DNA of 64,000 nucleotides from Akkermansia sp. RCC_12PD (GTDB lineage: Bacteria > Verrucomicrobiota > Verrucomicrobiia > Verrucomicrobiales > Akkermansiaceae). The stretch is from the NCBI RefSeq assembly GCF_036417355.1, contig NZ_CP143889.1, positions 3,100,001 through 3,164,000 on the forward strand, given 5' to 3'. The first letter of the stretch is position 1; each line of letters begins with the position of its first letter. Positions 2,777-58,600 of this stretch are shown piece by piece. The position numbers and the translations under genes are program-made. Under the pieces are notes generated by a model. That model was not told where the DNA came from and did not search any database. It saw only the letters and a list, made by a program, of their open reading frames with translations.

Positions 2777-2846
2777 GGTTAATTAAGTTATAAACTATTT
2801 CCTGTAGAACTGGTTAGAACTGGTAAGAAAAACTTTACAGTTGGGG

Positions 2847-3131: not shown

Positions 3132-3140
3132 GTGCAGGGG

Positions 3141-3623
3141 TTATTTTTCCTGTTTGATGACGACGGGGGCTTGTTCCGCGGAGGCCGGAGGTTCCGGTGC
3201 ATTCTGGCGGTAGGTGATGCTCTGGCCGTTTTTGTCCAGGACGAGGCAGGAGCCGTCTTTGCAGATTTCCGTATGATCAGGCGTGATGGTGACGTCATGC
3301 CCGCATCCAGCAAGGGAGGATGAGATGCCAAGAACAGCCAATCCGGCGACAATGATGGAGGCTGCCCAATAGAGGGCTTTCTTCCAGCCGGACGTTTCTG
3401 ACGCCTTGACGCCGAGGTAGTCCTTCACGTCCTTAAGCGCGTGCTTGCCGATGATGGGGAGGGCAGTATTTGCTACTGCAATCCATCCTTTCTGTTCGTT
3501 TTCGGTCAGGTCTGGCCAGTGAGGGATTGGCGTGTTGGACTCATTATGTGCCTGGGCTGCATAGTACATGTGCATTTCCCTGGCGATAGCCTCGGCGTGA
3601 TTGCATTGATTATTAGTAGTCAT
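3141..3623 (-). CDS. Membrane-anchored phage protein with internal lipobox-like site
   Basis: A 160-residue protein. The N-terminal 80 residues are soluble, with a stretch around IPHWPDLTENEQKGWIAV. Residues about 85 to 108 form a hydrophobic segment preceded by lysines (KKALYW) and ending in LAGC, which looks like a lipobox. The C-terminal 50 residues are polar and end in a Pro/Glu-rich tail. It sits upstream of the holin candidate and the endolysin, where spanins are often found. A bitopic membrane protein is the safe reading. No strong ribosome-binding site marks the start at 3623. Confidence 0.5.
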   Translation of the reverse strand: MTTNNQCNHAEAIAREMHMYYAAQAHNESNTPIPHWPDLTENEQKGWIAVANTALPIIGKHALKDVKDYLGVKASETSGWKKALYWAASIIVAGLAVLGISSSLAGCGHDVTITPDHTEICKDGSCLVLDKNGQSITYRQNAPEPPASAEQAPVVIKQEK

Positions 3624-39183: not shown

Positions 39184-40152
39184 TTAGGACAAGGGCTTGC
39201 ACTTGATCTGTACGAAAGCCTCTTCACGCATGCGGGTGGAACCCATAATCGTCTTGAGGCCGATCTGGATGGTATCTTCTTTGTCGGTGCGCTTCTCCAC
39301 CGTCACCTTGCTCTGCTTCCAGGAACCGAAATACAGGGAATTCTTCATCCACATCGGACAAATAATATTCCCGCTCTCATCCAGGGGCAAATTCGGCGAA
39401 ACAACAAACTGAATACCCATGACAGGATCCAGCGCTCCATTAGTCTTGCGCAGGGAGGCAAACCCGAAATCCGCCTTCTGCAGGCGCTCGTCATTAATCA
39501 AAGCCTCACGCATGCGGGGAGTAATCGCGCAGCACACCTGATCTCCGTAAGCATTGGAAGCATCATCCAAAATGCCGGCCTCCTGCAAAAGCGTAATGCC
39601 GCGGTTAAGCTTCTCGATAGTCATCGGGCAATCCTTGGCCGTGCCGCCTGTATGGTCAACCGGAACAACATTGGAAGCAAGAAGCTCCAGCTGGTCCATG
39701 CCGTCATTGCCGGCAAACGCCGTGCCGAAAATGCCGCCCTTGGAAGGAACGTAAACGCCGCCCTGCTTGCGCAACCCAAACAGAACATCGTCCATCTTGC
39801 GGGCTGCCGCATACTTCAGGGCATTAATCGTCTGCGTAACGGGAGCATCCAGCCCGTGAAGGAAAATATCATCGTCCTCATCGTAGCCCAGGTGCTTGGA
39901 AAAACTCACCGGAAGCATCCGGCGCTTGAAATAATTAAGCTCATCCAGAACAATATCCTGCATGCGCCCGCGCTTCTCTTCCAACTCCGTGGCGCCCACG
40001 AAATTGAACTCCATAAGCTTGCCGGTCAGGCCGGACTTAACCACACAAAAGCGTTCCAGGCGGGAAGTCGCCTGCTGAACCTGCTCCTGCCACTGGTTAT
40101 CGTAAGTCTCCTGATAAAGATCGGAGATGGGAAGGGTATAATTACTTGGCAT
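39184..40152 (-). CDS. Major capsid protein
   Basis: A 322-residue protein starting MPSNYTLPISDLYQETYDNQ. The sequence has an N-terminal arm, then a HK97-fold-like core (FVGATELEEKRGRMQDIVLD, RRMLPVSFSKHLGYDEDDDI, INALKYAAARKMDDVLFGLR) and a C-terminal strand region ending FVQIKCKPLS. Its position at the head of the structural operon and the following decoration gene support the call. A GGAGG stands one base before the ATG, within a CCTCC/GGAGG inverted repeat. A late motif copy ends 32 nt upstream. No scaffold gene is visible next to it. Confidence 0.8.
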   Translation of the reverse strand: MPSNYTLPISDLYQETYDNQWQEQVQQATSRLERFCVVKSGLTGKLMEFNFVGATELEEKRGRMQDIVLDELNYFKRRMLPVSFSKHLGYDEDDDIFLHGLDAPVTQTINALKYAAARKMDDVLFGLRKQGGVYVPSKGGIFGTAFAGNDGMDQLELLASNVVPVDHTGGTAKDCPMTIEKLNRGITLLQEAGILDDASNAYGDQVCCAITPRMREALINDERLQKADFGFASLRKTNGALDPVMGIQFVVSPNLPLDESGNIICPMWMKNSLYFGSWKQSKVTVEKRTDKEDTIQIGLKTIMGSTRMREEAFVQIKCKPLS

Positions 40153-40184: not shown

Positions 40185-40200
40185 CAAGTTGGCGAGTGTC
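40185..40200 (-). promoter_or_regulatory. Conserved late-gene motif, copy 5 (capsid), truncated on its upstream side
   Basis: TGACACTCGCCAACTTG on the minus strand ends 32 nt before the capsid start. The GGCAAGAAGTAG part of the other copies is missing. The sequence changes abruptly at about 40200, which may be the prophage edge. Confidence 0.65.
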
Positions 40201-40429
40201 AATTCAGTTGCAGATTTGACAATTCACACATCAATCACTGTCATACAGGCGTTACAAAAACGTTACAGAACAAAGTAAATTGCTTACATAAAATTAATTA
40301 AAACCCACTCTCTCCGCCAGTTTGTTTTCCCATGTAAAGAGATAGGGTATCCCTGGGTATAGGACAACGCCTCCCCCGGAAGCCTGTTCCGGAGAAATGC
40401 ATTCCGACACCCAATTTTGCGTTATGGAC
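40201..40429. other. Gene-free junction between prophage and glycan locus
   Basis: No convincing ORF, tRNA or integrase is present. It has an AT-rich part (40240-40310) with GTTACAAAAACGTTACAG, and a small inverted repeat CCGGAA-GCCTG-TTCCGG (40375-40391) that could end the glycan operon, although no T run follows. It is the expected place of one attachment site. Confidence 0.45.
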
Positions 40430-41239
40430 TTAATTCAGGGACAGATCCACATACGAACTGTTTGCCTTCTGAAGCAACGGAAGGATATGAGTCCGGAAAC
40501 GATTCACCAAATCAGGATTTTGAGAAAGAGGTGTGATTTCATTTTCCTGAAAGTCCCGGATAACGTTTCCGTATCTGGCTTTTCTCATGAAGTGCATCCA
40601 GCAGGTATTAGAATAGGGTCTTATCCAGGGGTGACGGGTTATATCCACTTCATAAGGCGCGGCAATTCCATAACGGGGCAAATTGTTCATGCCACAAATA
40701 AATGAATCTCCTCCTCCATTTCCCGGTCGCGGCCCATAAATCATTAACCTTTTCTGGAAAACCAAAGTATTATGCCCCCGGATAGAAACACAATCATCCG
40801 GTTTGCCTATCATTTGGTATGCAGCTTCCAATTCCTGTGTAAAATAAATTTGATCAGCATCAACTTTGCCGACACAGAATGATTTCCCCGCATAGAGATT
40901 ACCAATGAAATCCATTCCGAAATTCAAGTAGGTGTCAATTCTGTTTTCTTTGGGAAGAGCCCTTAAATCATCAACTGAATGAGGAGGAACCACATGATGC
41001 GGATAATGAAGAAAACTCAGGCGACACTCATATTTATCTTCAATATACTGTTTCCATTCTTCCATGAGCTCAATAGTGCGGTCCTCCGTATCCGACCAAA
41101 GAATAACGACATGATCCAGAACGGGAGCTACGCTTAAAAGACAGGGAATAACAGTATTTTCTTCATTAAGAATACGGAGAAAGCCTACCCGTTCCAAATA
41201 TCCTTTCGAGGAACCCGTTTCTTGTACGCCAGATTGCAT
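40430..41239 (-). CDS. Putative glycosyltransferase (GT-A-like, family unclear)
   Basis: 269 residues. The sequence begins with a GT2-like start (LRILNEENTVIPCLLSVAPV, DHVVILWSDTEDRTIELMEE) and has KVDADQIYF, a D-x-D-type motif, at about 131 to 139. VSIRGHNTLVFQKRLMIYGP and GGGDSFICGMN follow in the acceptor half. No membrane segment is seen. It is the last gene of the glycan operon and ends about 230 bp from the prophage edge. The fold is likely, the donor unknown. Confidence 0.6.
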   Translation of the reverse strand: MQSGVQETGSSKGYLERVGFLRILNEENTVIPCLLSVAPVLDHVVILWSDTEDRTIELMEEWKQYIEDKYECRLSFLHYPHHVVPPHSVDDLRALPKENRIDTYLNFGMDFIGNLYAGKSFCVGKVDADQIYFTQELEAAYQMIGKPDDCVSIRGHNTLVFQKRLMIYGPRPGNGGGDSFICGMNNLPRYGIAAPYEVDITRHPWIRPYSNTCWMHFMRKARYGNVIRDFQENEITPLSQNPDLVNRFRTHILPLLQKANSSYVDLSLN

Positions 41240-41277
41240 TTTAACTTCAATAGTTTTTAAACATTAATGATATTATC

Positions 41278-44200
41278 TCAGGCAGATATGCTCATTACAG
41301 ATTTATTTGAATTTTCTCCGCATTCACTTTGTATCATTTTCTGAAACATTTCCTTCATCCATGATTGGATCAATTCCGGTTTTTGTTTTACCAATTGTGT
41401 GATTTTTCCATGAACGTGGGCAATTTCCTCATTACCTTCAGCCTGATGAACATATGTTTTTGTCAGATAAGGCTCCAATCTTTTTGTGGCGTCTGCATCA
41501 CAGAACCAATGTGGATTTGAACTATAAAAGCCAAATAGGTGAAGACCGGAGGATGTTTCCTGCCGCAGTATCGCCAGGGGGTCTCCATAATGTTGAAAAA
41601 GAGATGAAAACGTTTTTTTCTCCCTTATTTGTGCATGCGCCGGAGAAATATACTTTCCCTGATGCATAGGTGATTTGCCACTGAAATCGAGCGGCCACGG
41701 ACACCCCCAAACGCCCATGTGGAGATGAGGAAAATCTTTTTTCAACCGGACCGCCAAAATCAGCGCTACGAGAGCATCCTTGCAGATACCTGTCAGAAGA
41801 ATAGATTTGAGGGAGGGCATCTTTCTTATTTCACGTTCTATATCAAGGCACATGCGGTCCAGCAGAAGAAGCCCTTCCCATTGATGATACTTCATGCAAA
41901 TAAAGGGATGCCGAAAGTTCAGCCATACGGAATTAGTGCCGTCACAGGGATTGATGAGCAATTCATCCGCGTACTTGTTCACTTCATTGATGGAAGAAGT
42001 ACAATGATAACTGAGATACTGGTAGTTGCCCTCTTCCATTTCATAAAATTCCTCCCTTCCCCAGTTGTCCCATTGAAGAACAAGCTTCTCTTCATCATGC
42101 TGTAGAATGACTGCAGCATCATTGCGGTGGAGCCTGCGTCCCCGTTTTCCCTCTATATGGAATTGGTCCGTCCACTGGGGATGCCTGATGACGATGTCCT
42201 CTGCAGGTTCCTCTTTCATTGAGGGGGACTCTGAAGAAGCAGAACCTGGCAATAGAGGGGAGGAATAATAAAACTCCCCGGCCTCGTCCTCCAGAATGGG
42301 AATTATCCTTCCATGATCGATGAGGGACTGAATATAGGCATTTTCCACAGATGCATGATGCTTGGGACTCCCGGAAGCCCTCAAATTCATATCCGTATCT
42401 CCCAAATAATAGAGTTGGGCATCCGGAAATAGATAATCCGCCAGGCAAAGAGCTTTGCTCAATGTTGTAAAGTTGGGCGTACTCCGATGAACTGCTCCCG
42501 GCATGAATTTCCAGTTTTTCAGTCCTTCCCGGCAGGCAAATTCATTGGAGCACCCCAATTCTTCATTATTGAAATAGATTTCCGGGATTTCAGGAAGCAT
42601 ATCCATATGCCTTTCCGCAGGAGAAAAAGCCAGATACCCATAAAAGCATGAAATCAAAAGGATATCCGTTCTCGTTCCCGCCAAACCGGAATTCAGGTTA
42701 TCCATTTTATTAACCCTCATGATTTTATCACAGGAATCAACAAACGCTGAATAATTGCGTTTCAAGTTCCGTTTATTAGAGACGATGCATATTCGTTTCT
42801 CACGTCCTTCAGAAGCCAGCAAACCCTGATATTCTTCATTTCCGCTCAATCTTGCCAACAGCTTCCATTCCTCTTCCGTATCAATTTGCAAACAACACGG
42901 AAAATCGTTTAAATACGGGCGCGAATCATTATCAAAGAGAGTTCCGGATTCCTGAAAATGCTTTTGTGTGATAGCATTAATATTGCCATCAAAGAAATAG
43001 AAAAATTTCCTGGCATCCTGTTCGCGATGAGCCACGTGGAATTGTCCATCCAGATGGCCGATCATTTTAATTCTATGGGCCGTATAGGCTGAGTGAATTT
43101 CTCCTTTTTCCATGTCTTCCGCCATCTGGCGCAGAAGCCCGGCCCTGCGAAAAGGAGAAGTCGGCTGAAGAATGGCAAACATTTTGCAAGAGATCCCGGA
43201 CAGAACCTGATGAATGCAATTTTCCATTCTCTTATCATTCACCTTTTCCCGGACATAACGGATACCTTCCCGGCGGCAGTATTCCATAATTTCTTCACTA
43301 TCAGTACTGACAATCGGCATGAATCCTTCCTGAAGGGCATATGAAACGGAATACTGGAACAAGGGACGCCCTGCAAATAATCGGCAGTTTTTGCCGGGGC
43401 AGCGTTCCGAGTCTTTCTTGGCCGGAATAACGGCCAGTTTAGGAATCAAATGCGAGGCTGCGTCTTCTTTAGCTGGCTTAAAGATAGAAGAAACGGATTT
43501 TTTCAGTAACCGGGGCAGCCTGAGTTCCATTTTTCCCGACCATTGCTTGCCGTCGTCATACCGGGGCATGATGGGATGGCCGTGATGCAAGCATGTCACC
43601 TTGAGGCGCGGCCTGCATTCACGCAGTATGTTCCCATTGGAAGCCACCATGGAAAAAAAATTCTCCAGACGGCGCATGTATTCCTTAATATCCGGCCTGC
43701 CGGGAGCAAAGACGGGGCCATCCATGTAACTGAGATAAAGTTCCTCATCCTGGTCAAGCCGGATAATGTATTCAGCCAGGGCTTCCGGGGATGAAAAATC
43801 CCCGGCATTGACAAAACGGGAAGGGTTGACTTCTTTTTCGGCGTCCGGTGCCCCCCAATAAATGGGAAGGGAAAGGGCGGCCAGGGAATCAATCAGTTTT
43901 TCAGTCGTGTAGCCGGCAGCGGGATAGTTTTCAAAGGCAATCGTGAATTTATAGGATGAACAGAAGGCAATCTTATCCCGAACACGTTCTCCCATGTTGT
44001 TCAGAACCGTACCCCCGCAATCTACGGTTTTGTATTGGGAAAGAAGGCGCATAAAATAAATTCTTTCCGGAGAGTTGCCATTGGAATATACGAAGTTGCA
44101 AAAACGGGTATGCCTGGACAAAAGGGATCTTTTATCCTTGGGATACTGTTCCACAACCCCTGTCTGCTTTATATAATTCCTTTCCATCCAGTTGGGAAGA

Positions 44201-44490
44201 CGCAAATGGCATTCGGGATAGGGGACATCCTCCCTCATGAATGAAATGGCATAATCGCATTCATCCCACAACGGCTTTACGGATTCGGCCGTATAGAAAA
44301 CCCGGACGCCTTTAAAATAGTGGTGCGCATTTCCAAAAACGGAGTAAATCAGCAAATCTGCTTCATCCTGATTATCCACAATAACCATATTCAGCCGTTC
44401 CTTTAAAACTGCTGATAAAATAAAATCATGCGGATTAAATCCCTGCCAAAAGTCGGCAAAGGCCACGCGAGTTAATTTTTTATTATTCAT
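41278..44490 (-). CDS. Trifunctional fusion: GT10 fucosyltransferase, CMP-sialate synthetase, GT29-like sialyltransferase
   Basis: About 1,070 residues. I start at the ATG that overlaps the upstream stop (ATGA, 44490). Residues 1-290 resemble GT10 alpha-1,3/4-fucosyltransferases: the donor motif is FTIAFENYPAAGYTTEKLID then SLPIYWGAP (182-214). Residues 351-560 resemble CMP-N-acylneuraminate cytidylyltransferase (LAVIPAKKDSERCPGKNCRL, VSTDSEEIMEYC, LQPTSPFRR, IDTEEEWKLL). Residues 566-735 resemble GT29: ICIVSNKRNLKRNYSAFVDS then KIMRVNK and GTRTD match sialylmotif L, and TTLSKALCLADYLFPDAQLY with HHASVE resembles the S and VS region. Residues 767-826 hold the shared HPQW/WDxWG module. The last 240 residues (SILLTGICKDALVALILAVR) are unassigned and hydrolase-like at best. 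It would load and transfer sialic acid and add fucose. Confidence 0.75.
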   Translation of the reverse strand: MNNKKLTRVAFADFWQGFNPHDFILSAVLKERLNMVIVDNQDEADLLIYSVFGNAHHYFKGVRVFYTAESVKPLWDECDYAISFMREDVPYPECHLRLPNWMERNYIKQTGVVEQYPKDKRSLLSRHTRFCNFVYSNGNSPERIYFMRLLSQYKTVDCGGTVLNNMGERVRDKIAFCSSYKFTIAFENYPAAGYTTEKLIDSLAALSLPIYWGAPDAEKEVNPSRFVNAGDFSSPEALAEYIIRLDQDEELYLSYMDGPVFAPGRPDIKEYMRRLENFFSMVASNGNILRECRPRLKVTCLHHGHPIMPRYDDGKQWSGKMELRLPRLLKKSVSSIFKPAKEDAASHLIPKLAVIPAKKDSERCPGKNCRLFAGRPLFQYSVSYALQEGFMPIVSTDSEEIMEYCRREGIRYVREKVNDKRMENCIHQVLSGISCKMFAILQPTSPFRRAGLLRQMAEDMEKGEIHSAYTAHRIKMIGHLDGQFHVAHREQDARKFFYFFDGNINAITQKHFQESGTLFDNDSRPYLNDFPCCLQIDTEEEWKLLARLSGNEEYQGLLASEGREKRICIVSNKRNLKRNYSAFVDSCDKIMRVNKMDNLNSGLAGTRTDILLISCFYGYLAFSPAERHMDMLPEIPEIYFNNEELGCSNEFACREGLKNWKFMPGAVHRSTPNFTTLSKALCLADYLFPDAQLYYLGDTDMNLRASGSPKHHASVENAYIQSLIDHGRIIPILEDEAGEFYYSSPLLPGSASSESPSMKEEPAEDIVIRHPQWTDQFHIEGKRGRRLHRNDAAVILQHDEEKLVLQWDNWGREEFYEMEEGNYQYLSYHCTSSINEVNKYADELLINPCDGTNSVWLNFRHPFICMKYHQWEGLLLLDRMCLDIEREIRKMPSLKSILLTGICKDALVALILAVRLKKDFPHLHMGVWGCPWPLDFSGKSPMHQGKYISPAHAQIREKKTFSSLFQHYGDPLAILRQETSSGLHLFGFYSSNPHWFCDADATKRLEPYLTKTYVHQAEGNEEIAHVHGKITQLVKQKPELIQSWMKEMFQKMIQSECGENSNKSVMSISA

Positions 44491-46850
44491 ACCAGCTTCC
44501 TCAACCATGCATGCCCCCCATATTTGGAAAGCGATTTATCCTTCACCAGAATTTTAACCCTATGTTTAAGCCCCATAAGATAATAACGGTTAAATACCAA
44601 AGTCTCAGGGAACAAATATTCCGGTCCTAGAACAAGGGGATGTCTGCCAACCACATATTTGTTGAGGTGGCTTTCATCATGCCAGACAGCTATAATTCCA
44701 TTGTCAAGATCCCGTTTAACAGCCCCGGCCAGTTCCCGGCACATGGAAAGAAAGTCCTTAGTCCTTCCTCCATTAAATCCTCCAGCGACATAGTATTCCC
44801 CCTGTTCGGGAAGAATCCGCGCTTCGGACATTCCGTTCTTTTCATAGGGATAACAGGAACGGGTGTTTCCGTAATATCCCGGATGAAGAGTTACTGCAAT
44901 CCCCTGCCGGTCATTCGGAAATATTTCTTCTCCAATGGGGGAAACCGGCAATAACGTACCATTCATAAAGTAAATGTAGTCATATTCCTGCAATTCTTTC
45001 TGAACACTTAAGAAAGTTTCAAAACGCCTTAAGGTTTCCATCGGCCAGGGATAGAACGGCTTGATGACAAGCGTTACGTCATCAGGAGTTTTAACTTCAT
45101 TATGATCCGTGAACAAAAAATAGCGGACGTCATGGCCTGGAAGGAAATATTGTTTGGCGGCTGCATAAAAATCTTTCCAAAACGCCATATAGCGTCCCGT
45201 GGCGATATATAATACGGCCACTTTCTTTCTCTGTGAGGAAGGAGAATTCTGTTGTTCCCCGTTTCCTGAAAGGAAAAACGAACCATCATCCCTCCTTCTG
45301 AATGTCTCCGTTCCCCATTGGTCCCACTTAAGAGTCACTTCTTCATCGGTCAAGGAAAGAACGTCAGCCCAGTCATTCCTTTGAAAACGGCATGCCCTGC
45401 CGCCAAAAATACGTACGATGTCGTACCATTGGGGATGACCGATTTCCATGAAGGATTCGGCATTGAACCGGCTGTGAGAGATCTGCCAGTTTCTTCCCCG
45501 GAAGTCCCCCGGCACCAGTCCCCCCCGCATCACGGAAGCATTGTTGGTCTGAATAACCAGGTGCATTGGAAGAGACATCTCCTGCACGTAACGGATACGG
45601 TTGCAGCTTCCGGTGTCAATCATGAGCTTGTGCATGAGATTGTCTTCCGTAAACCCGTATCCGGAATGTCCCAGCCTGGGAGAAATCTCGGAGATCCTTC
45701 CGGGATCCTGTTCACAGGTGATTAATTTTTCAAGGACATCCCTGCTGAATACCATGGTGGGTCCAAAACAGCTGAAAAAGCCATTCCCGCAAAGTGGATA
45801 ACCCCCACGGGCGTTCAGATATTGGCCGAAGCCGCAGTAATAACTGCTGAATTCCCGTGGAAGATGTTGATGGAAGTCATTGATGGATTTAAAATAGTCT
45901 CTTCCGTACAAGTCATCGTCGTCAATTTTGGCAAAAAGGTCGTAGTCGGAAATATCCAGATCCCGTATTGCATCCAAAAAGTTGGAAAGCTGGTTTTTAT
46001 TCGGGAACAGTCTCATTGTCAGGCGTCCTTCCTGGATGAAATGTTCAAAAAGAGGAAGAACAGTCTTTCGGTATGTAGCTTCCGGTATGCCTTTAACAGC
46101 GGCAAAAACATGGAAATTCTCATAGCTTTGATCCATCATGCACCAGATTTGCCTCTGTAAGTCCGTTAAGCGCCTGTAGGAAGAAAGACAGGCCGCAATA
46201 CGGCAGGCCGGTCTTTTTTTTGTCCGTTCATGCTGGTAGAATAAATTGTGACGGGCAACCCGGATATGAAGCTCCCCGTTGCTGTTGGCCGCCTCCAAGG
46301 CAATATCCGTTGGCAGCCGATAATCGGCAAAAACCTGAATGACTTTTTCCCGTTTGCAAGAGGGGATTACCATGGCATGCGTTCCCCATACATAGGGAGT
46401 ATTGAAGTCGGTCTTTCCCGTTTTGAAATCTTCAAACAAAAGTTCATCAGACTCAAATGGATTTCCCTGAGGCGACCAGACGGCATGGTGAAAAAGCCTG
46501 AAAATATCCGTTTCCGGGTGTTCCTTCATCTCTTTCCTCAAAGCCGCCTCCAAACGTGATGAAGCTACCATGGGAACGGCATCGCTTTCTCCGAAGATGA
46601 TCAAATCATTTCCGGCATATCTCCTGTCTTCCAGCATCCGTATGAAGGATGCTCTCAGGGAACGCACATGGGAGCGTTCCGCGGAACAAGGATCCCGTCC
46701 GATAAATGCGGCGCTTTCCTTCTCCCGTGTATCCTTCAAGGATGAAAGATCCCGGGTGGAAGGATAGAGCTCCAATTCATATCCCATCCGGTGCAGTTCA
46801 GAAGCTCCTTCCGCCATCTCTCCGGAAGATATAATCAAGACGCATTTCAT
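44487..46850 (-). CDS. Fusion glycosyltransferase: GT25-like, GT2, shared module and GT6 (ABO-type)
   Basis: 787 residues. Residues 1-210 look like a GT25 domain (SAERSHVRSLRASFIRMLED, NDLIIFGESDAVP). Residues 216-440 form a GT2 domain (RIAACLSSYRRLTDLQRQIW, FAKIDDDDLYGRDYF with its acidic metal motif at 310-313, and EDNLMH). Residues 468-527 hold the shared module (GHPQWYDIVRIFGG, RNDWADVL, LKWDQWGTETF). Residues 541-787 are a GT6 domain: VAVLYIATGRYMAFWKDFYA, YIYFMNGTLLP, EYYVAGGFNGGRTKDFLSMC and the highly diagnostic AVWHDESHLNKYVVGRHPLV then LGPEYLF. GT6 includes the animal blood-group A and B transferases. The DxD of animal enzymes is replaced by MNGT, as in metal-independent bacterial members. 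It overlaps the next gene by ATGA. Confidence 0.8.
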   Translation of the reverse strand: MKCVLIISSGEMAEGASELHRMGYELELYPSTRDLSSLKDTREKESAAFIGRDPCSAERSHVRSLRASFIRMLEDRRYAGNDLIIFGESDAVPMVASSRLEAALRKEMKEHPETDIFRLFHHAVWSPQGNPFESDELLFEDFKTGKTDFNTPYVWGTHAMVIPSCKREKVIQVFADYRLPTDIALEAANSNGELHIRVARHNLFYQHERTKKRPACRIAACLSSYRRLTDLQRQIWCMMDQSYENFHVFAAVKGIPEATYRKTVLPLFEHFIQEGRLTMRLFPNKNQLSNFLDAIRDLDISDYDLFAKIDDDDLYGRDYFKSINDFHQHLPREFSSYYCGFGQYLNARGGYPLCGNGFFSCFGPTMVFSRDVLEKLITCEQDPGRISEISPRLGHSGYGFTEDNLMHKLMIDTGSCNRIRYVQEMSLPMHLVIQTNNASVMRGGLVPGDFRGRNWQISHSRFNAESFMEIGHPQWYDIVRIFGGRACRFQRNDWADVLSLTDEEVTLKWDQWGTETFRRRDDGSFFLSGNGEQQNSPSSQRKKVAVLYIATGRYMAFWKDFYAAAKQYFLPGHDVRYFLFTDHNEVKTPDDVTLVIKPFYPWPMETLRRFETFLSVQKELQEYDYIYFMNGTLLPVSPIGEEIFPNDRQGIAVTLHPGYYGNTRSCYPYEKNGMSEARILPEQGEYYVAGGFNGGRTKDFLSMCRELAGAVKRDLDNGIIAVWHDESHLNKYVVGRHPLVLGPEYLFPETLVFNRYYLMGLKHRVKILVKDKSLSKYGGHAWLRKLV

Positions 46851-46862
46851 AAAATTTAAATG

Positions 46863-49118
46863 TTAAAGTTTAATCCAGGAAGGGCAGAAAATATCCTGTT
46901 CATCTTCAATATTTCCGGTAAACCACTGTTTTTGAATGAAAACCCGTTGCTGGGAGCCCAGCCACGCCCCCCACCAGGAAAAGGAGGAGCAAGAGAGGAC
47001 AAGTTCCTGCATGGCCGTTAATTCCCGGAGGGCATCCAGTGTTTCATGTTCATCCATGACTATTTCAAAACGCTTGGCTTTCGGGACACTTTCCACCAGC
47101 TTCCGGGCCAGTTCAGGAGAGTCGGAGAAAACAACCAGTGTTCTGATATTGTCGGAAAGTCTTTTAAACGCCTCATTAAGGAAGGCGCCATCCGGCGTGT
47201 GATACATATCCGCTCTCTGAAGGTAATCTCCTATCCTCAGATGAACGCCGGCAGTTCCTTCCTGCACGGGCGCTATGAGAGACTGGAACAGGGAACGTAT
47301 TTCTTCAGCAAAATCCTCAAAATACCGTTCACTCTGAAAGTAGCCGCTCAACGCGCCACGACGGACCGTATCCGGAATGGGCCTGTAAGAAAATCCGGGT
47401 TCCCGGTATGTTACAGGATCGGAATAGCCGCCATCCGGGCATGGAGAACACGCACTTCCCAAGTAAGACATCAGGTTCCAGGTGTTCAAATCGTGCCTCC
47501 AGGGAATGCGGCATCCAACGTCCGTCCTAAGCGCATGGGCATAAGTTGCGGCTATCTGGAACAAATGCCGGCCTGTACGTGAGTTTGGAAGGAATTGAGT
47601 AGTCACGTATTCAGGAGAAATCTTTTCTGAGTCAGAAGACAAAGAAAGAAACCTCCTGGAGCTGCTCTTCTTCGGTTTTCCCGCATCCAGACAAACGGCG
47701 CCCAGCAGATCAAAAGGATGTTCGTCCCGGTCGATGCGTCTTTCAAGACATTGAAGATGCAAATACCGGGATTCCCCCGGCGCATGCTGTGAAACGTAAA
47801 ATCCGAATTCCTTCAACAGATAGCTTAAAAAATCGGTATTCCACAGGGACTGATGCTGGTAGGCTTCCATAAGCATGCACAAGTCATGTTCCGGAACCGG
47901 CTTTTCCCGAAACCGTTTCTTCATGTATTGCTTGAAAGCGGGAGATATCACTCCGTGCATCAAACGAATATCACGGAAACTCAGACGCAAAAAGCCTCCC
48001 GGTTTTAAACAGCGGAATGCCTCTGCAAAAAAATGGCAGGCCTCCACGGGCGTAACTTTGTCAATCCCATATTCCAGATAGAATGCATCTACCGAGTCAT
48101 CTTTCCACGGAAGCGGACGGGTAATGTCATAGTTGGGGGAGTCCAAATTCAACCAGCCATTCAATCTCCGGTTACCGCACCCCAAATGAATATACTGCAG
48201 AGGAGATTGATCCATGATCTCGGCGCTGCTGGCAGAGAGTTTGCTTTCAGACCACAATCGGTACAGGGAAGGCATGCCGGGGCGCTGGTGAATCTCCATT
48301 TCCGACCCAATATAGGCATCTCCTTCTAAAAGAAGCTGTTCCATCGGCCACATTTGCCATTTCAACGTTAACTCCCCTTTATGCCCAATACTCCACCACC
48401 CATAGCAGGACGTGTCACGGCGCCGGAACACTCCGTTGGCATAAAACAGCATTTCACCCTTCCAGTGGAGATGAGTCACGTCGCAGACAACTGAAGGAAC
48501 CCTGTGGTTGAAAGTATACAGGGCATTCATAATGGCAGGCGTGCACCAGTGCGCCGTTACCATGTCATTCCCGGCATCCGGGTAATGGACATTGCTCATG
48601 TAAAGACGGCCTGTCGACTTCAGCCTCCCTTCAAGTTTCCCTACCAGTTCACCCACGATCACATCCTCCGCCCCGCAATCCGCAAAGCCGGGCGCCTCCA
48701 CAAGCTTCTCCACCATGCCCCTTTTCAGAAAATAACCCGCTCCCCCACTCGGAGAGTTGCGCATGGACACCAGCGCATCCCCGATCAAGTCGTACTCATC
48801 ATCCACCACGGATTCCAAACGTTCCAAGTCCACATACGTATCGTCATCACACTTGAACAGCCACTCAAAGTCGTAGTTCTCCAGCGCATACCGAAAGAAA
48901 GACTTCACCTTCCCCGGTAGCTCGTCGTAGCCATCCGCTGTGTCCAGCACCACCGTATCCCCCCTTTCCTCTTCCAGTCCTTCCTTTCCTCCCACAAAGA
49001 ACACGCATTCTATCCCATCCGCCGGATGCTCCAGCCACGTCTCCCTCACCGCATCCCTCTTTTCCTTCATCCGCTGGCACGAGCAGATTCCTACCAGTAT
49101 CTTCACTTGCTTTTTCAT
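46863..49118 (-). CDS. Fusion: GT31 galactosyltransferase-like, shared module, SAM methyltransferase-like, GT11 alpha-1,2-fucosyltransferase
   Basis: 751 residues with AAAGGAG before the start. Residues 5-205 resemble GT31: ILVGICSCQRMKEKRDAVRE, WLFKCDDDTYVDLERL (DDD at 91-93) and GAGYFLKRGMVEKLVE with ED at 151-152. Residues 212-271 are a divergent copy of the shared module (LTLKWQMWPMEQLLL). Residues 308-470 are methyltransferase-like (YIHLGCGNRRLNGWLNLDSP, FRCLKPGGFLRLSFRDIR). The HLGCGN SAM loop is intact, and I infer no substrate. Residues 504-751 match GT11: TGRHLFQIAATYAHAL, GVHLRIGDYLQRADMYHTPD (626-632) and LSCSSFSWWGAWLGSQ (708-723). It may add beta-1,3-Gal and then alpha-1,2-Fuc, an H-antigen-like order. 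Confidence 0.75.
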   Translation of the reverse strand: MKKQVKILVGICSCQRMKEKRDAVRETWLEHPADGIECVFFVGGKEGLEEERGDTVVLDTADGYDELPGKVKSFFRYALENYDFEWLFKCDDDTYVDLERLESVVDDEYDLIGDALVSMRNSPSGGAGYFLKRGMVEKLVEAPGFADCGAEDVIVGELVGKLEGRLKSTGRLYMSNVHYPDAGNDMVTAHWCTPAIMNALYTFNHRVPSVVCDVTHLHWKGEMLFYANGVFRRRDTSCYGWWSIGHKGELTLKWQMWPMEQLLLEGDAYIGSEMEIHQRPGMPSLYRLWSESKLSASSAEIMDQSPLQYIHLGCGNRRLNGWLNLDSPNYDITRPLPWKDDSVDAFYLEYGIDKVTPVEACHFFAEAFRCLKPGGFLRLSFRDIRLMHGVISPAFKQYMKKRFREKPVPEHDLCMLMEAYQHQSLWNTDFLSYLLKEFGFYVSQHAPGESRYLHLQCLERRIDRDEHPFDLLGAVCLDAGKPKKSSSRRFLSLSSDSEKISPEYVTTQFLPNSRTGRHLFQIAATYAHALRTDVGCRIPWRHDLNTWNLMSYLGSACSPCPDGGYSDPVTYREPGFSYRPIPDTVRRGALSGYFQSERYFEDFAEEIRSLFQSLIAPVQEGTAGVHLRIGDYLQRADMYHTPDGAFLNEAFKRLSDNIRTLVVFSDSPELARKLVESVPKAKRFEIVMDEHETLDALRELTAMQELVLSCSSFSWWGAWLGSQQRVFIQKQWFTGNIEDEQDIFCPSWIKL

Positions 49119-49132
49119 GTCTTTTCTCCTTT

Positions 49133-50179
49133 CTAGGCAGGAAGCTGTTCCACCGCTTCAAAGATTTCCTCCCAGCTGGATACCGACGATTCCAGCCCTC
49201 CAAGTTCCAATCCCCGCTCACGAGCCGCCTCCGCCATGTCCCTCCTCAGGTTCGGTTCGTAGGCCATCTTGCTGGCGTAGTAGATGAAGTCCCTTTCATG
49301 GTCGCACAGCCATCCGGTTTTGCCGTGCTCCACCATCTGGCGCCAACCTCCGCGGTTGTCCACCACCAGCACGCTGCCGCTGGCCATCGCCTCAAAGCCC
49401 ACTCTCGGCCAGTTTTCCGTCGTGTCCGTGGGCTGAAGCACTATTTCACAGTGCTTGTAGAAGTCCTGCTGGCTCACCTCCCTCTGGTCGCGCGCCGTGC
49501 GTATCCACCCGTAGGGTTCTCCGATTTTCTCCCGGCTCCTCTGGTCGAAGCCCAAAAACAGGCCACGCTTGAAGAGGGGGGAGACGAAGTATTCGTAGAT
49601 GTGGAGCGTGTTGGCGGCGAATTTGTCCGCGTCCTGCCGGGAGATGCGCCCGCAGCCGAAGTATTCCCCGCTTCTCTCGGCGATGAAGGGGAAGGAGTCG
49701 TTGTGGAAGTAGGGCTTGAAGGTCATGAACGCAATGGAGGGGTCGTCGTTGCAGCGCTTGAGCAGGGGCATGTTTTTCTGGCGGACTTCTTCGTTTTGGT
49801 AAAGGAACATGGCAATGAGCCCCTGCTTCATGAGTTCCTTTTCCTTGTTGAAGAGCCAGGTCATGCAGTTGACGAAGATGGTGCGCCTGGTTTTTTGGCG
49901 GATGGCGGGGAGGTTTTCCAGGTATTCGCCGTTGCAGAATCCGATGATGGCATCCCCTTCTTCCAGGACGGACCAGTCGTTGGGAGCGTGGATATGAACG
50001 CCCAGCCCCAGCATTTCCAGGTAGAGGGCTTCGTTTTGGAAGCCGTCGTTGGTGGGGATGATGTGGACGTCAATGTCCATGTGTTTCCAGACCAGTATCT
50101 GGTGGTGGAGTTCAGTTCCGGCTCCGCCGTAGAGGCTGGGGAAGCCGTTGACATAGATTTTCTTTAAGGAGGTGCTCAT
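49133..50179 (-). CDS. GT4-family glycosyltransferase
   Basis: A 348-residue GT-B enzyme. The N-terminal NGFPSLYGGAGTELHHQILV is the acceptor-side glycine loop, and the C-terminal ENWPRVGFEAMASGSVLVVD then GGWRQMVEHGKTGWLCDHER is the nucleotide-sugar site with the E-x7-E-like pattern. It is the first gene of the operon and is more GC-rich than the next three. It lies 14 bp before the GT31/GT11 fusion, suggesting cotranscription. The donor sugar cannot be told. Confidence 0.85.
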   Translation of the reverse strand: MSTSLKKIYVNGFPSLYGGAGTELHHQILVWKHMDIDVHIIPTNDGFQNEALYLEMLGLGVHIHAPNDWSVLEEGDAIIGFCNGEYLENLPAIRQKTRRTIFVNCMTWLFNKEKELMKQGLIAMFLYQNEEVRQKNMPLLKRCNDDPSIAFMTFKPYFHNDSFPFIAERSGEYFGCGRISRQDADKFAANTLHIYEYFVSPLFKRGLFLGFDQRSREKIGEPYGWIRTARDQREVSQQDFYKHCEIVLQPTDTTENWPRVGFEAMASGSVLVVDNRGGWRQMVEHGKTGWLCDHERDFIYYASKMAYEPNLRRDMAEAARERGLELGGLESSVSSWEEIFEAVEQLPA

Positions 50180-50339
50180 GGGTTAATTCTCAAGTGGATT
50201 CACTGAGCGACGCTAGCACGCGAACTTTTATCCTGGCAATGGACAAGTTTTGAAAATATGGCAAAGAAATACCTGCCACCGGCAAGGGATACCTTCTCTT
50301 TTCGCATGTTGTCATCCGCCTCAAAAATTCACCAAATAT

Positions 50340-52803
50340 CATAACGTTTCCGGCGTGTTTACTTTGCTGGTTTCTGTTAGCCGCATTCCCACTTCGGAGA
50401 TCACAGCTGAATCACTGGTCGTAAACGGGGTTAGCGTAAGCCAGACTGACCATGAAGGCATTCATTCTTCACAACGGCGCTCCTGCATCTCTACAGGGAT
50501 GTTTCTGGAAAAAAACCGATGGTAGCGGCAACACCATTATGGAGGAAACGGACGTAGCCGGACGCCCCGGCTAAGACTACTGATCCTGCGGGCCATGTCA
50601 CCACCACCAGCTATCTGCCCTGCTGTGACAATCCTGCCTGCATCACCGACGCATTGGGAGGAACAACCTGTTATACCTACGACATACGCGGCAGAAAGAC
50701 GGCAGAATATGGCACCGCCATTCAGCCGGCCTGCTTCGCCTACGACGAAGCCGACCGCATGGTGGCCCTGACTACCTTCCGTGCAAACGAAGGCGACATC
50801 ACCACCGATCCTTCCGGCCGAACCGACGGAGACACCACCACCTGGCTCTACGATCCAGCCACCGGTCTGGAGCTGAAAAAAGCCTATGCCGACGGTTCCT
50901 GTGTCTCCAAAACCTATGACGATCTCAATCGTCTGAAGACATTGACCAAGGCCAGATGTATCACCACCACCTGTGCCTATGCTCCTCTCACCGGGGAACT
51001 CGTCTCCCCTCCCACAATGACGCTACTCCCGGATGGAAGTTCACCTACAACCACATCGGACAAATGACCTCCGTCCGGGACGCTTCAGGAACCAGGGAAT
51101 TTTCCTACGATGCTTATGGCCGCATGATTCAGGACACTTCCTTTTGAACCGTGGAAAGCTGCACCCAGGAAGAATACGATGCCTTGGGGTGTTCCAACGG
51201 ATACCGCCTGATGCTCGGCACACGCACGGTGCAGCACTCCCATCTTGACTACGGCCATCAGGGAGGCATTATTGGGATGAATCTGGAAGGCATCGCTTCT
51301 CCCTTTACATGGCAGTACGATCCAACCAGCGGCTTCCTCCACTCTCTCACCTACCCCAACGGCATGGTCCGCCAAAACACCTACCATCCTGCCCTCAACC
51401 TCGTAACCGCTATTGGTTACAGGAAGGGAGCGGACGGCGAATTGGCGGCCGGCCACGAATACGACTACAACGCGCTGATGCGTCCCACTCAACGACGGGA
51501 CTCATGGGATGCTGCCACTCCCGCGACGATAAGAGGTTTTACCTATAACAGCCGCAGTGAACTGCTGGAAGATCGCATCAGCTGGGGAGGAAGGTTTGCG
51601 TCCTGCTATGACAACATCGGCAATCGCAAGACCGCCCGGGAATTGGAGGAAGACATCTCCTACGAATCCAACCGGCTCAACCAGTACACGGATATTGCCG
51701 AAGGGGTAGAAGATTTTAACCCCGTCTACGATGCCGACGGCAACCAGACCAGGATCAAGACTTCAACGTGTGTCTGGGAGGTATCCTACGACGCCAACGA
51801 CCGCCCCGTCGTCTTCACCAGCCAGGATGGCAGAACAACCATCACCTGCGGTTACGACTACCGGGGAAGGCGCCTTGAGAAGAAGGCCACGGTCAATGGG
51901 GCAGTATCCGGCCACTCCCGGTTCCTGTACCGAGGCTATTTGCAGGTAGCCCAACTGGATTTGATGCATCCCGAACCCTTGCTGGTGAAGAGCTATTTGT
52001 GGGATCCGACAGAGCCCACGGCCACGCGCGTCCTGATGATGACATGCAGGAAAGACAACATTTCACAGCAGGAAGAGCATCTCTACTTCATCCACGATGC
52101 CTTGAAGAATGTCACTTCCATCCTTGACGGCCAGCAGAAACAAAAAGCCCGCTACGAATATGCACCTTTCGGAGGCCTGCTCACCGCTGAAGGGGACATG
52201 GCCCGGGAGAACAAGTTCAGGTTTTCCTGCGAGTTCTCGGATGACGAACTGGAACTTGTCTACTACAATTACCGCCATCTCAATCCCGCAGACGGCAGAT
52301 GGATTAACCCCGATCCTATCCAGGAACAAGGAGGTGGAATTTATACGGTTTTGTTTCAAACAAATTGTTCATTACAGACCTTCTTGGATGTGCCATCTAC
52401 GTGGTTGCCTGTCTAGATAAAAACAAAGAAAAAGACATAGAAAAAAATAAAATATTTATAAAAAACTCTAAAAAATATTACAGAGGAATATGATACATTA
52501 GCAGTAATCTCCCATGATGAATATTCAACAGCTACGGGAATAAAAAAGTCTACAATCAATTAATTATAGAAAAAAAAGGAAAATAAATCTAAAATATATG
52601 CCGACATGGGAAAATTTAAAAAATTCTTATCGTCATTGTATCCATCGAATGCAACAAATGGATATGGTATTTATTTAGTGGCATGCCATCAAGATGGTGT
52701 AATTTCCGATGGAGGCTGGAGAATTTATTCTAATGTTGAAGGAATAGTTGTACCTGATATCTCCGCATTATATGATTCCGATACATATTTTTTATCTCAA
52801 TGA
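50340..52803 (+). pseudogene. Decayed RHS-repeat (polymorphic toxin) gene
   Basis: RHS-type sequence is spread over several frames. Parts seen: IPTSEITAESLVVNGVSVSQ (from ~50370), TDGSGNTIMEETDVAG, then TTDPAGHVTTTSYLPCC in another frame, and 50654-51000 (CYTYDIRGRKTAEYG, WLYDPATGLELKKAYADGSC). A frameshift near 51000 and a TGA at 51145-51147 follow. The main open part is 51148-52330 (YRGRRLEKKATVNGAVSGHS, FRFSCEFSDDELELVYYNYR). The core ends RWINPDPIQEQGG. One extra base near 52335 shifts the true continuation NLYGFVSNKLFITDLLG. The variable tip (KKYYRGIYDTLAVISHDEYS, then YGIYLVACHQDGVISDGGW at 52606-52803) is split by more frameshifts. No intact toxin should be made. Confidence 0.8.
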
Positions 52804-53014
52804 TTCTTTACTGAAAGCAGAAGATTTATCCAAATTCGACTGTTGTGTAAAATGCAAATTAAAAAAAGATCCTACTTTAAAATTTGTTCACAAATCATAA
52901 AATATTATTTATCTATTTTAAGCATAACAAAAATCTATGCATGATTCTTGTTTTTTTCATGAAAATCATGCACATGAACTTTAAAAATTATAAAAGTAGC
53001 ATAAATTATTTAAT

Positions 53015-53539
53015 ATGAAAACTAATATTATATTTCCTTCGGTTATTTTGGCATTAAATTTATTAGGGTCCTGTACATTCATATCCCAAAAAAAAGAAGA
53101 AACAAAAAACTCCTATATTCCTCCTTACTACCTACATTACAATACTCCTGCCTACATTGTAGGAAAAGATATGATTAGAAATTCATTAAAATCATACTGG
53201 GATTTGTCATCAAATACGACTCCACAACCAAATCTTAATCCATATGATAAAAAATGGAATGGAAGCGAAACAGCTCTTATGCTGGCGGCAGCTATCGGGG
53301 ATATTGATACCATGAAGAAATTACTCGAATTTAAGGCTGATATTAATGTAGCTTCAAATGAAATGAAGCTCCCCTCTATGACCTTTCCCTACAAAGAAAC
53401 TGCCTTACATTATGCTGCTCGTACAGGACAAATAGGTGCCTACAATTTTCTAATTAAACAAGGAGCTAACCAGAATTTGAAAAATACTGATGGAAAAACA
53501 GCCCAGCAATTACTGGAGAATGAAGTAAAAAATAATTAA
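53015..53539 (+). CDS. Ankyrin-repeat lipoprotein, candidate immunity protein
   Basis: 174 residues. The N-terminus is a lipoprotein signal (LALNLLGSC, Cys20) following MKTNIIFPS. Residues about 90 to 165 contain two to three ankyrin repeats (ETALMLAAAIGDIDTMKKLL, then ETALHYAARTGQIGAYNFLI and KQGANQN). Ankyrin proteins directly downstream of polymorphic toxins often act as immunity proteins, and a lipoprotein would protect at the envelope. The cognate RHS gene upstream is broken, so this may be an orphan. It is AT-rich, like the surrounding region. Confidence 0.7.
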   Translation: MKTNIIFPSVILALNLLGSCTFISQKKEETKNSYIPPYYLHYNTPAYIVGKDMIRNSLKSYWDLSSNTTPQPNLNPYDKKWNGSETALMLAAAIGDIDTMKKLLEFKADINVASNEMKLPSMTFPYKETALHYAARTGQIGAYNFLIKQGANQNLKNTDGKTAQQLLENEVKNN

Positions 53540-53867
53540 AATTATAGAGTAACATACAGGATCGAAATAGGAGGGATAGGCCTGCCGGACAGTAACAGGA
53601 TAAGAATATATACAGGACAATTTCTTCCAAAAAAAGATTTTCAGAAAGAACTTATTAAGTTAAAATTATCCTGTCTATAATAAAATAAAAGGGCAGCAAA
53701 TTGACATCCTCTATCTTCCCCATACTCCTTTTTGTGCCATGATTAATGATTTTCCATATGGACTGGGATAGGTACTGGCCCGGGGAACCATTCTTGTAGC
53801 TTTATTTTCTGCATTTATACTTTATGTATTGCTGCTGAAATGGGAAAATAATGATACGACGAAATAG
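53540..53867 (+). pseudogene. Remnant of a membrane protein gene
   Basis: Broken frames read VTYRIEIGGIGLPDSNRIRI, then after two stops and a shift QQIDILYLPHTPFCAMINDF, then VALFSAFILYVLLLKWE, which is a membrane helix. The order of a beta domain followed by a transmembrane helix resembles the end of the DUF3592-like gene downstream, so it may be a decayed relative. I see nothing further between 53868 and 54039 except AT-rich sequence. Confidence 0.4.
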
Positions 53868-54039
53868 AGGTGATTTTTCCATGCCCTATATAATAGATAT
53901 ACTCAATAATTTATCCCCAGGAAGTGCTATTTACGAATTTAAAACTCCTGCATTGGAATTTAAATAAGTTATTTATTTTTAACAATATTGACATAAATTA
54001 ATTAAGTATATAAAATACTTTTTTGAATTGAAATATGTT

Positions 54040-55698: not shown

Positions 55699-58600
55699 CT
55701 ATTTACTATCAACCAACTCCCGGCGTATGTATTCCGCTGTGGGCGAATCCTTTTGAGCGATTTGCTCCGGGGTGCCGCTGGCTACGATGCGGCCGCCTTC
55801 CTCTCCTGGTCCGGGCCCCATGTCGATAATATAGTCCGCCTCCGCCATGATTTCCGTGTTGTGCTCAATGACAATGACCGTATTTCCCTGGTCCGCCAGG
55901 CGGTGCAGCACGTCGATAAGAAGACGCACGTCCCGCGGATGCAGGCCGATGGAGGGTTCCTCAATGAGGTACAGGTCACCGGGCAGTTCCTTGCCTTTCA
56001 TCAGGGCGTTCCGGCTGACGCGCCGGCCCTTGATGAGTTCCGTCACCAGCTTGAGCCTCTGGGCCTCCCCGCCGGAGAGCGTGTTGGAGGCCTGCCCCAG
56101 TGTCAGATAGCCCAGGCCGGTTTCCGCCAGCAATTTGAGGGGATCTGAAATGCGGGGCTGGCTTTCAAAGAATTCCGCCGCCTCCGAGAAGTCCATCCGC
56201 AGCACGTCCGCAATGGTTTTCCCCTTGTACCTCACGGTCAGGGTGGCGGCGTTGTAACGCTTGCCCCGGCAGGTTTCACACGGCACGTAGCAGGGAGGCA
56301 GGAAGTCCATTTCCAGCTTCTGCATGCCTGTTCCCTTGCAGGACTCGCAGTTGCCCTGCCCCGTGTTGAAGGAGAAGCGGCCGCGGTCGAAACCCAGCCG
56401 CCGGGCATCCGCCGTCTGGGCGAACAGGGTCCGGATATCATCCAGAAACCCCACGTAAGTGGCCGGAGTGGACCTGGGAGTCTTGCCGATGGGACTCTGG
56501 TCCACCCCGTACACCATCCGCAGGGAATCAAACCCGGAAGAGGATTTCCACAGCTTCTTCTGTTCACGGGTCAGTTTGTCCCCCAGCGCCTGGCGCGCCG
56601 CCAGGCGGATGGTTCCGGTCATCAGGGAGGTCTTGCCCGCTCCGGAAACGCCAGTCAGTACGGTAAGGCGCCCCTTGGGAATAGCCACGTCCACATTCTT
56701 CAGGTTATGCAGGCAGCAGCCCTCCACCCGGAGCCACGCGGTTTCATCCTTGCGGGCAGGTATCCGGCGCCGTTTGCCGCGGTACGGATGGTGCGGCTTG
56801 TGATGCAGGGCCAGCCCGGTAACGGAATCCGGCATTTCCGCCAGTTCCTCAAAGGTCCCCTGGGCCATGACGCGCCCACCGTGGACGCCCGCTCCGGGGC
56901 CCATGTCCACAATGCGGTCCGCACGCTTCATCGTGTCCTCGTCATGTTCCACCACCAGCAGCGTATTCCCCCGGCGTTTGAGTTCATCCAGCGTGCCCAG
57001 AAGCAGTTCATTGTCCCGCGGGTGCAGCCCGATCGTGGGTTCATCCAGAACGTACAGTACGCCCCGGAGATGAGAGCCAAGCTGGGATGCCAGGCGAATG
57101 CGCTGGGTTTCCCCGCCGGAAAGCGTCGTCGCACTGCGGTCCAGGGACAGGTACCCCAGCCCCACGCGCTGGAGGAAGCCGAGCCGCTGCGTCACTTCCG
57201 CAACTACGTCCCGGGCGATCAGGGCTTCTTCACGTTCAAACTTCCAGCCCTCCACCAGTTTGGCGGCCTCCATGGCCGGCAATGAGGCAAGCTCGCCAGG
57301 CGTCACGCCCTGGAGCCTGACGGCACGGGCAAATTCATTCAGGCGCACACCGCGGCAGGCAGGGCATGTTTTTACCTCCTTTTCGTCATCCACCTGCTTG
57401 GCAAGCTCCTTGTCGTATTTCAACTCCGCTTCCAGCAGGGACTGGGCCTGGTCTTCCTTCATCTTGCGCTTGCCCACCACGCCGTGCCCCCGGCAGACGG
57501 GGCACCAGCCGCGGGGAGAGTTGAAGGAAAACGTGTACGGCTCCAGTTCCGGGAAAGACTGGCCGCAGGAGGCGCAAGCCAGCTTCACGCCCATCAACTC
57601 CGGAGAGGAGGAACCGGGGGGAAGCACCTGCAGGAAACCTTCCCCCATGTCCAGCGCGGCGTGAACCGCCTGCGCCACTTCATCCGGGGTCCAGGAACTT
57701 TCCGGACGGCTCATCACCAGGTCCAGATCGTGGCTGGAATAACGGTCCAGGGGCTGAAAGCCGCTCAGCGGCACCAGGCCTCCGTCCACCCACAATTCTT
57801 CATACCCCTTGCCTTCCGCCCAGCGCGCCAGATCGGCGTAATGCCCCTTGCGCCCGCGCACCAGGGGCGCCAGCAGGGCCAGCCTGCCATGCTTTTTCAA
57901 CTGCCGGGAAACGAGTTCCACCACTTCCGATTCCGAACGCTTGCCTACCGGCACTCCGCACTTCGGGCAATAGGCCTGCCCCAGCTTGGAATACAACAGG
58001 CGCAGGAACTGCCAGATTTCCGTAACCGTCCCCACCGTGGACTTGGTACCGCCGCGGGACATGTTCTGCTCAATGGCCACCGTGGGCGGCAGACCCGTAA
58101 GGCGGTCAATGTCCGGACTTTCCAGTTGCTCGGTAAACTGGCGGGCATACGGAGACATGACGTCCATGAAACGCCTCTGCCCTTCCGCAAAGAAGATATC
58201 GAAGGCCAGGGAGCTTTTTCCCGATCCGGACAAGCCGGTCAGCACGGTCATTTCTCCGCGAGGCACGTCCAGATCCACGTTCTTCAGGTTGTGGTGCCGC
58301 GCCCCCCGCAGGGCCATGACGCCTGCCGGAATATCCATATCCGCGGAATCCGGCATGGCGGCGTCCTGCGGATCGTAAACGGAGGGAAGGCCTTCGAGCA
58401 CGTCCTTGAGGTACTTGCCCGTGTAGCCCTTGCCGGCCGCCACGATTTCCTCCGGCGTCCCGGCCGCAACCACATGGCCGCCGCCCGCTCCGCCTTCCGG
58501 CCCCAGGTCAATCACGTAATCCGCGGACTTGATAAACTCCGGGTTGTGCTCAATCACCAGCAGGGTATGCCCCTGCTCCACCAGCTCCCGGAAAACGGCC

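Follow-up and report, generated by a model that had tools for sequence, protein, structure and literature searches.

We analyzed a 64,000-nucleotide stretch of Akkermansia sp. RCC_12PD (contig NZ_CP143889.1, positions 3,100,001 to 3,164,000; hereafter the window), in which one gene joins a fucosyltransferase, a cytidylyltransferase and a third domain resembling sialyltransferases of family GT29. The fusion is a genuine one, both conserved and unusual. We tentatively propose, as a reading that falls somewhat short of an even chance, that its product is an enzyme of several domains from a chromosomal operon for surface glycans, one that would activate and transfer an acidic sugar and add fucose. 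The protein is probably cytoplasmic. The gene and its domains are as follows (aa, amino acids; pLDDT, predicted local distance difference test).

41278..44508, minus strand: fusion gene, 1076 aa, a single uninterrupted open frame shared by its relatives
43609..44472, minus strand: GT10 fucosyltransferase domain, residues 13-300, by Pfam and the FEN...GYTTEK motif
42841..43455, minus strand: cytidylyltransferase (CMP-ulosonate synthetase-like) domain, residues 352-556, by CTP_transf_3 and alignment to the Neisseria enzyme NmCSS
42289..42813, minus strand: GT29-like domain, residues 566-740, with N578, D591, R598, T614-D615, T681-T682, H717 and E722
42004..42201, minus strand: shared module, residues 770-835, predicted all-beta, pLDDT about 60-73
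41290..41991, minus strand: C-terminal domain, residues 840-1073, no family named, found together with the module also in 386-aa proteins

The first-pass annotation had described a single open frame with the order GT10, CMP-sialate synthetase, GT29-like domain and shared module. Both the frame and the order stand, with a cytidylyltransferase in second place, and a C-terminal domain is now separated in addition. The start that it gave, 44490, corresponds to Met7. Translation more likely begins at 44508, because a start codon at this place is kept, in frame, in six of the six relatives with this N-terminus (ATG in G037, G047, G017, G057 and G075, GTG in G004), whereas only the window's genome (G000) and G004 have Met7. 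From this start, the first 22 bases of the gene also belong to the end of the gene upstream. Only FucT_N, Glyco_transf_10 and CTP_transf_3 match the fusion above their Pfam cut-offs; the sole further Pfam match, NTP_transf_3, covers the same stretch as CTP_transf_3 and falls below its cut-off.

The full fusion is present in 5 of the 192 genomes searched, all of them Akkermansia (G000, G004, G037, G047 and G017), with the four other copies at 70-85% identity and variant forms elsewhere. An assembly slip, a frameshift or chance is ruled out as its origin, the whole frame being kept in five genomes. Residues ~32-351 are missing in frame from the G057 and G075 proteins, where the first ~31 residues remain as a scar. 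In A. glycaniphila (G013; loci L043/L073), one 782-aa chain carries the cytidylyltransferase, the GT29-like domain, the module and a CgtA-like domain; the G009 copy is broken by a stop; and G017 additionally has unfused cytidylyltransferase and GT29-like genes that overlap by 26 bases. The ratio of nonsynonymous to synonymous substitution rates (dN/dS) was 0.07-0.19 in the cytidylyltransferase and GT29-like domains for five of six pairs, with values saturated for the G013 pair, and 0.17-0.69 in the linkers. Both domains are under purifying selection, and the cytidylyltransferase domain is therefore used for something. A 5-kb contig labelled Clostridiales (L070) also encodes the fusion from residue 209 to residue 1076, with 70% identity; it is probably mis-binned.

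The claimed GT10 fucosyltransferase domain was confirmed by two Pfam families, FucT_N at residues 15-108 (E = 1.5e-17, 64.3 bits versus a cut-off of 27.2) and Glyco_transf_10 at residues 136-262 (E = 1.8e-20, 73.8 bits versus a cut-off of 23.9), and by the motif FEN...GY.TEK, which aligned with the alpha1,3-fucosyltransferase 2nzw and which we take to be the GT10 donor-site motif. This domain would add fucose from GDP-fucose, and gmd, for GDP-fucose, has one place above cut-off in G000. In the phage record collection, the fusion's matches (9 records) were to its GT10 part only.

The second domain is homologous to synthetases of cytidine monophosphate (CMP)-N-acetylneuraminic acid (Neu5Ac). CTP_transf_3 (PF02348) matches residues 359-479 (E = 7.2e-12, 46 bits versus a cut-off of 22.6), and a domain-family profile matched three of the five listed CMP-Neu5Ac synthetases over their full length (1eyr, 1.3e-10; 1qwj, 1.6e-10; 6ifd, 1e-6). 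The same profile matched listed KdsB sequences with its first part only, and 0 of 13 reach beyond profile position 130. Homology to the Neisseria CMP-Neu5Ac synthetase (NmCSS, 1eyr) is full-length, and its Q104, K142 and D211 have equivalents here (Q448 for Q104, D543 for D211); among seven relatives, the equivalents of Lys142, Gln166, Phe193 and Asp211 are kept in all seven and that of Gln104 in six. It is plausible from this homology that the domain activates sialic acid, as had been claimed; in the proposed mechanism, it would make a CMP-activated acidic sugar.

Several observations weigh against sialic acid as the substrate. Of the two metal-binding aspartates of NmCSS, D209 and D211, the latter is kept in 7/7 relatives, but Gln (Q541 in the window protein) occupies the D209 place in all of them. 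With Ala in place of Asp209, NmCSS had no activity that could be measured, and the Asp211Ala change cut its kcat 15,000-fold (PMC2901514). Tyr179 of NmCSS is not kept, and the Arg165 place aligns to Glu, in a register that is uncertain by 1-2 residues. Four cytidylyltransferases encoded near GT29-type genes in the phylum keep Asp209 (4/4) and Asp211 (3/4); since none of them keeps Gln104 and one of four keeps Arg165, these two places say little. The three of them that were scanned match CTP_transf_3 above cut-off. No curated NCBIfam equivalog cut-off was reached by the fusion's domain, for which the best model was PseF (55.5 versus 205.7 bits), with no NeuA-named model among the matches. Finally, a search for NeuB (E <= 0.001) drew a blank in G000 and in seven further genomes that carry the GT29-like domain, namely G004, G009, G013, G014, G017, G037 and G047. 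The assignment to the CMP-Neu5Ac synthetase kind stands as homology, and the aspartate replacement and the absent NeuB match count against sialic acid activation.

That invariant replacement, of a ligand essential in NmCSS (PMC2901514), also raises the alternative that the domain is catalytically dead and instead assists its GT29-like neighbour, either structurally or by binding CMP-sugar. We consider this quite unlikely: the domain is under purifying selection (dN/dS 0.07-0.15), its KN and PTSP residues and its Lys142, Gln166 and Asp211 equivalents are invariant in 7/7 relatives, an unfused prophage cytidylyltransferase carries the same Gln at the Asp209 place, and the only other of the two CTP_transf_3 places in G000 (E <= 0.001) is a KdsB-like gene, so labelled from its sequence. 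The same KdsB-like gene bears on a further alternative, somewhat unlikely in our estimate, in which the sugar handled by an identical architecture is not sialic acid but a different 3-deoxy-ulosonic acid, for instance 3-deoxy-D-manno-octulosonic acid (Kdo), which the cell makes. The absent NeuB match, the loss of Asp209 and Tyr179, the PseF name far below its cut-off and the three Kdo of Akkermansia lipooligosaccharide (PMC13135019) all point that way. However, the profile matches CMP-Neu5Ac synthetases (three of five) over full length but no KdsB, the KdsB-type QGDEP reads LQPTSP in this domain, and the KdsB-like gene is present separately.

Akkermansia is a mucin degrader that lives on intestinal mucus. 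If the fusion protein activates and transfers an acidic sugar as we propose, that sugar would most likely be Neu5Ac scavenged from mucin, given the lack of a NeuB match and the presence of sialidase-type genes (BNR_2, three places above cut-off in G000); without NeuB, sialic acid would need to be scavenged. A. muciniphila frees sialic acid, and its growth is not sustained by that sugar (PMC10067855).

Bacterial sialyltransferases belong mostly to families GT38, GT42, GT52 and GT80. By its motifs and profile, the third domain of the fusion is GT29-like, probably within the GT29/GT42 superfamily, with a fold that weakly agrees; it is not filed in GT29, because the Pfam GT29 cut-off is missed. 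The sialylmotif L pattern is present, its N, D..D, R and G..T/C-D/T columns being common with bacterial GT29-type sequences (L098 is without the N). The His/Glu active-site residues are also present, as H717-x4-E722 in motif VS. The H-x4-E pattern recurs in all seven family sequences compared (in L048, in a shifted register) and in four of six GT29 references; of the other two, one has x5 and one has none.

The profile alignment with GT29 suggested by the first-pass annotation gave a signal when the GT29-like family was compared by hhalign with six bacterial proteins reached by PF00777 (L098 below its cut-off): a probability of 94 and E = 1.2e-7 over 156 columns. The score, 52.9, exceeds the maxima of 199 column shuffles (19.5) and 200 block shuffles (45.3). 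Because 12 of the 200 block shuffles exceed a probability of 50, short motif blocks alone can score. When a hidden Markov model was built from the six references only, the top 11 of 1132 open reading frames all belonged to the GT29-like family, each weakly (E = 0.008-0.94; window protein 0.049), these 11 being mutual homologues and not independent. Conversely, a profile of ten aligned GT29-like domains (A1) gave 13 matches at E <= 0.1 across 337 phylum genomes, seven in Akkermansia and six in others (3.7e-7 to 0.03). One protein of G428 is reached both by PF00777 (1.4e-9) and by A1 (0.02). For L101, found with A1 at 3.7e-7, the only Pfam match is PF00777, below cut-off (E = 0.0043); the better E-value of the comparison with L101 (window protein 8e-5) is partly circular, since the profile that turned L101 up was built from this same family. 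Within the genus, 10 of 76 genomes carry the domain.

The predicted fold (pLDDT 68, predicted template modelling score 0.70) gave moderate matches to sialyltransferases in VIA-align: human ST6GALNAC2 (Z = 7.9 over 143 residues), ST6GAL1 (Z = 6.0) and Campylobacter jejuni CstII (Z = 5.8), three sialyltransferases among the top eight chains, where by the program's own note a Z under 8 can reflect a common arrangement.

Other results count against membership of GT29. HMMER found no PF00777 match to the domain (window protein, E up to 10; 10 family members) and no match to it in the PDB. Leave-one-out hhalign scores range from 44.9 to 55.7, the lowest falling under the best block shuffle, and several of these runs align only 47-51 columns, which are the L motif; the profile signal thus comes mostly from that motif. 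The sequence of the window protein alone reached a probability of 46 (E = 2e-4). Motif S keeps its Thr-Thr, but its Gly is replaced by Leu, Val or Phe. For the model, the pLDDT is 68, Foldseek returned no PDB match at E <= 0.001 (best E = 0.07), and the first row in VIA-align is SteA (Z = 8.0), which is not a sialyltransferase and is level with ST6GALNAC2. Of the claimed GT29-like domain, the L motif, the His/Glu pair and the profile similarity stand; the Pfam cut-off is missed, and motif S and the fold agree in part.

In the proposed mechanism, the GT29-like domain would transfer the acidic sugar of the CMP-sugar to the growing glycan, and the fusion may hold this labile donor near the transferase. 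The same two domains are encoded side by side, unfused, in an Akkermansia prophage (L049, 7241-8333), where the genes overlap by 26 bases and lie between genes that read as tail genes; one of eight proteins scanned there matched a phage capsid family (phrog_212). Such an overlapping pair fits donor coupling. Similar pairings of GT29-type and cytidylyltransferase genes occur elsewhere in the phylum (L095 and L096) and in a genome of the genus (L075, 3508-8770), where a 549-aa GT29 protein has two CTP_transf_3 genes nearby. In a phage-like region of G038 (L076, 1283-3168, minus strand), a GT29 gene lies just above the Pfam cut-off (23.5 versus 23 bits), with an integrase gene nearby; an adjoining gene reads as cytidylyltransferase-like, with no Pfam match, and another as glycosyltransferase-like. 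The best viral match of the GT29-like model was to Myoviridae sp. ctZYN8, in a protein of 170 aa (32% identity, E = 5.4e-10), three scans of viral contigs found no relative, and nothing in the phage record collection matched the GT29-like gene in its unfused form. Genes carried by phages hint at how such modules might spread. The contig that bears the unfused GT29-like gene of G014 (L048) has a second gene, at 2673-3257, that reads as GT29/GT42-like (SPTTG, H..E) and has no Pfam match.

The shared module was likewise confirmed: it recurs in the upstream GT2+GT6 protein (residues 466-529) and, weakly, in the GT31+GT11 protein (residues 212-265, i-E = 1.1e-4). Together with the C-terminal domain it forms stand-alone 386-aa proteins in G047 and G017 (37-38% identity). 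Pfam names no C-terminal domain: five relatives yielded one chance-level match (HTH_TANC1, E = 0.1, in 1/5) and the 386-aa form none. The fold model of module and C-terminal domain is poor (pLDDT 40). Inspection of its sequence suggested, tentatively, that the C-terminal domain might be a degenerate alpha/beta hydrolase (G-x-C).

The fusion is the fourth gene of a five-gene operon whose members share a strand and either overlap slightly or lie no more than 38 bases apart. Its neighbours, and the repeat at the edge of the locus, are as follows.

49133..50179, minus strand: GT4-type (Glycos_transf_1) glycosyltransferase, 348 aa, by Pfam
46863..49118, minus strand: GT31, weak module, methyltransferase-like part and GT11, 751 aa; methyltransferase matches below cut-off
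44487..46850, minus strand: GT2-like part, module and GT6, 787 aa; GT2 label read from sequence, no family match
40430..41239, minus strand: CgtA-like protein, 269 aa; 19.3 versus 21 bits, below the Pfam cut-off
40301..40319, no strand: prophage attachment repeat at the end of the prophage, outside the cassette; 18/19 bases equal the tRNA-Ser 3′ end

The operon order is kept in G004, G047, G017, G057 and G075, and the stretch covered in G037 agrees up to its end; the CgtA-like frame of G017 is broken after about residue 155. A phage capsid gene (39184-40152) lies 1.1 kb from the fusion gene, and phage-borne unfused homologues exist, which would suit a lysogenic-conversion gene carried as cargo by the adjacent prophage. 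That origin is extremely improbable. The 42.5-kb prophage at tRNA-Ser(TGA), bounded by both repeats (G000:C1:3097792-3140319; window 1-40319, continuing left of the window), contains the capsid gene and ends at 40319, and G004 and G037 are homologous to the window from 40301 on, the place of the 19-base repeat of the tRNA-Ser(TGA) 3′ end. In G004 the cassette lies beside the same tRNA with no phage, an empty site that rules out prophage cargo here. The cassette therefore belongs to the chromosome. Promoter and terminator scans of the locus did no better than shuffles. A scan of 40200-54000 for tandem repeats able to switch the cassette gave one hit, at 52414, which lies outside the genes.

With its GT4, GT31+GT11, GT2+GT6 and CgtA-like proteins, GT6 being the blood-group A/B-type family, the operon resembles the human gene set for sugars of the histo-blood-group kind. 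Together with its GT31, GT11, GT6 and CgtA-like neighbours, the fusion protein may build a product like host histo-blood-group or sialyl-Lewis caps, probably on lipooligosaccharide; the first-pass annotation had suggested a sialyl-Lewis-like product. The lipooligosaccharide of A. muciniphila is reported to contain fucose and three Kdo (PMC13135019); neither 'sialic' nor 'Neu5Ac' appears in the available part of that work, which counts against a sialylated product, and the strain may lack the locus. Other capsule loci are treated in PMC13343947, in the available part of which the word 'sialic' does not occur, and the passages of PMC9378777 that match GT6 concern GT61. A bolder reading, unlikely in our judgment, is that Akkermansia rebuilds mucin-like surface caps from stripped mucin sugars with one self-contained polypeptide that activates and attaches scavenged sialic acid and adds fucose, in an operon of histo-blood-group enzyme families, and that the activating and transferring pair is traded with phages as a host-mimicking sialylation module.

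In C. jejuni, cgtA/neuA1 is reportedly one polypeptide. This gene (orf5/10), in a host-mimicking lipooligosaccharide locus, joins a CMP-Neu5Ac synthetase with the N-acetylgalactosaminyltransferase CgtA and is the closest natural parallel known to us (PMC7248181); the A. glycaniphila chain likewise joins its cytidylyltransferase with a CgtA-like domain. C. jejuni has a separate sialyltransferase, neuB1 and neuC1, whereas the Akkermansia fusion includes GT29-like and GT10 domains and the search for NeuB gave no match. The GT29 sialyltransferase-like proteins of bacteria share the L motif and the motif VS pattern with the Akkermansia domain, which differs in lying below the Pfam cut-off, lacking the motif S Gly and being fused; the available part of that study does not mention Akkermansia or Verrucomicrobia (PMC5811610). 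Among the titles and abstract openings listed by literature searches, none dealt with a natural synthetase-sialyltransferase fusion or with this Akkermansia locus. Engineered fusions of CMP-Neu5Ac synthetase and sialyltransferase follow the same coupling idea; they are man-made, use another transferase family and have no fucosyltransferase.

If the proposed activities hold, a widely studied genus of beneficial gut commensals would carry glycans of host type on its surface, similar to blood-group or sialyl-Lewis structures, which would bear on immune tolerance, on recognition by lectins and on the binding of phages, and the fusion would be a natural self-supplying sialyl- and fucosyltransferase, useful in glycan synthesis. 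The invariant Asp-to-Gln change offers a clean test of metal handling by cytidylyltransferases. At 5.5 kb from the cassette, the window also encodes a UvrA-type protein of double length (55699-61221, 1840 aa), with four ABC_tran and two UvrA_inter stretches.

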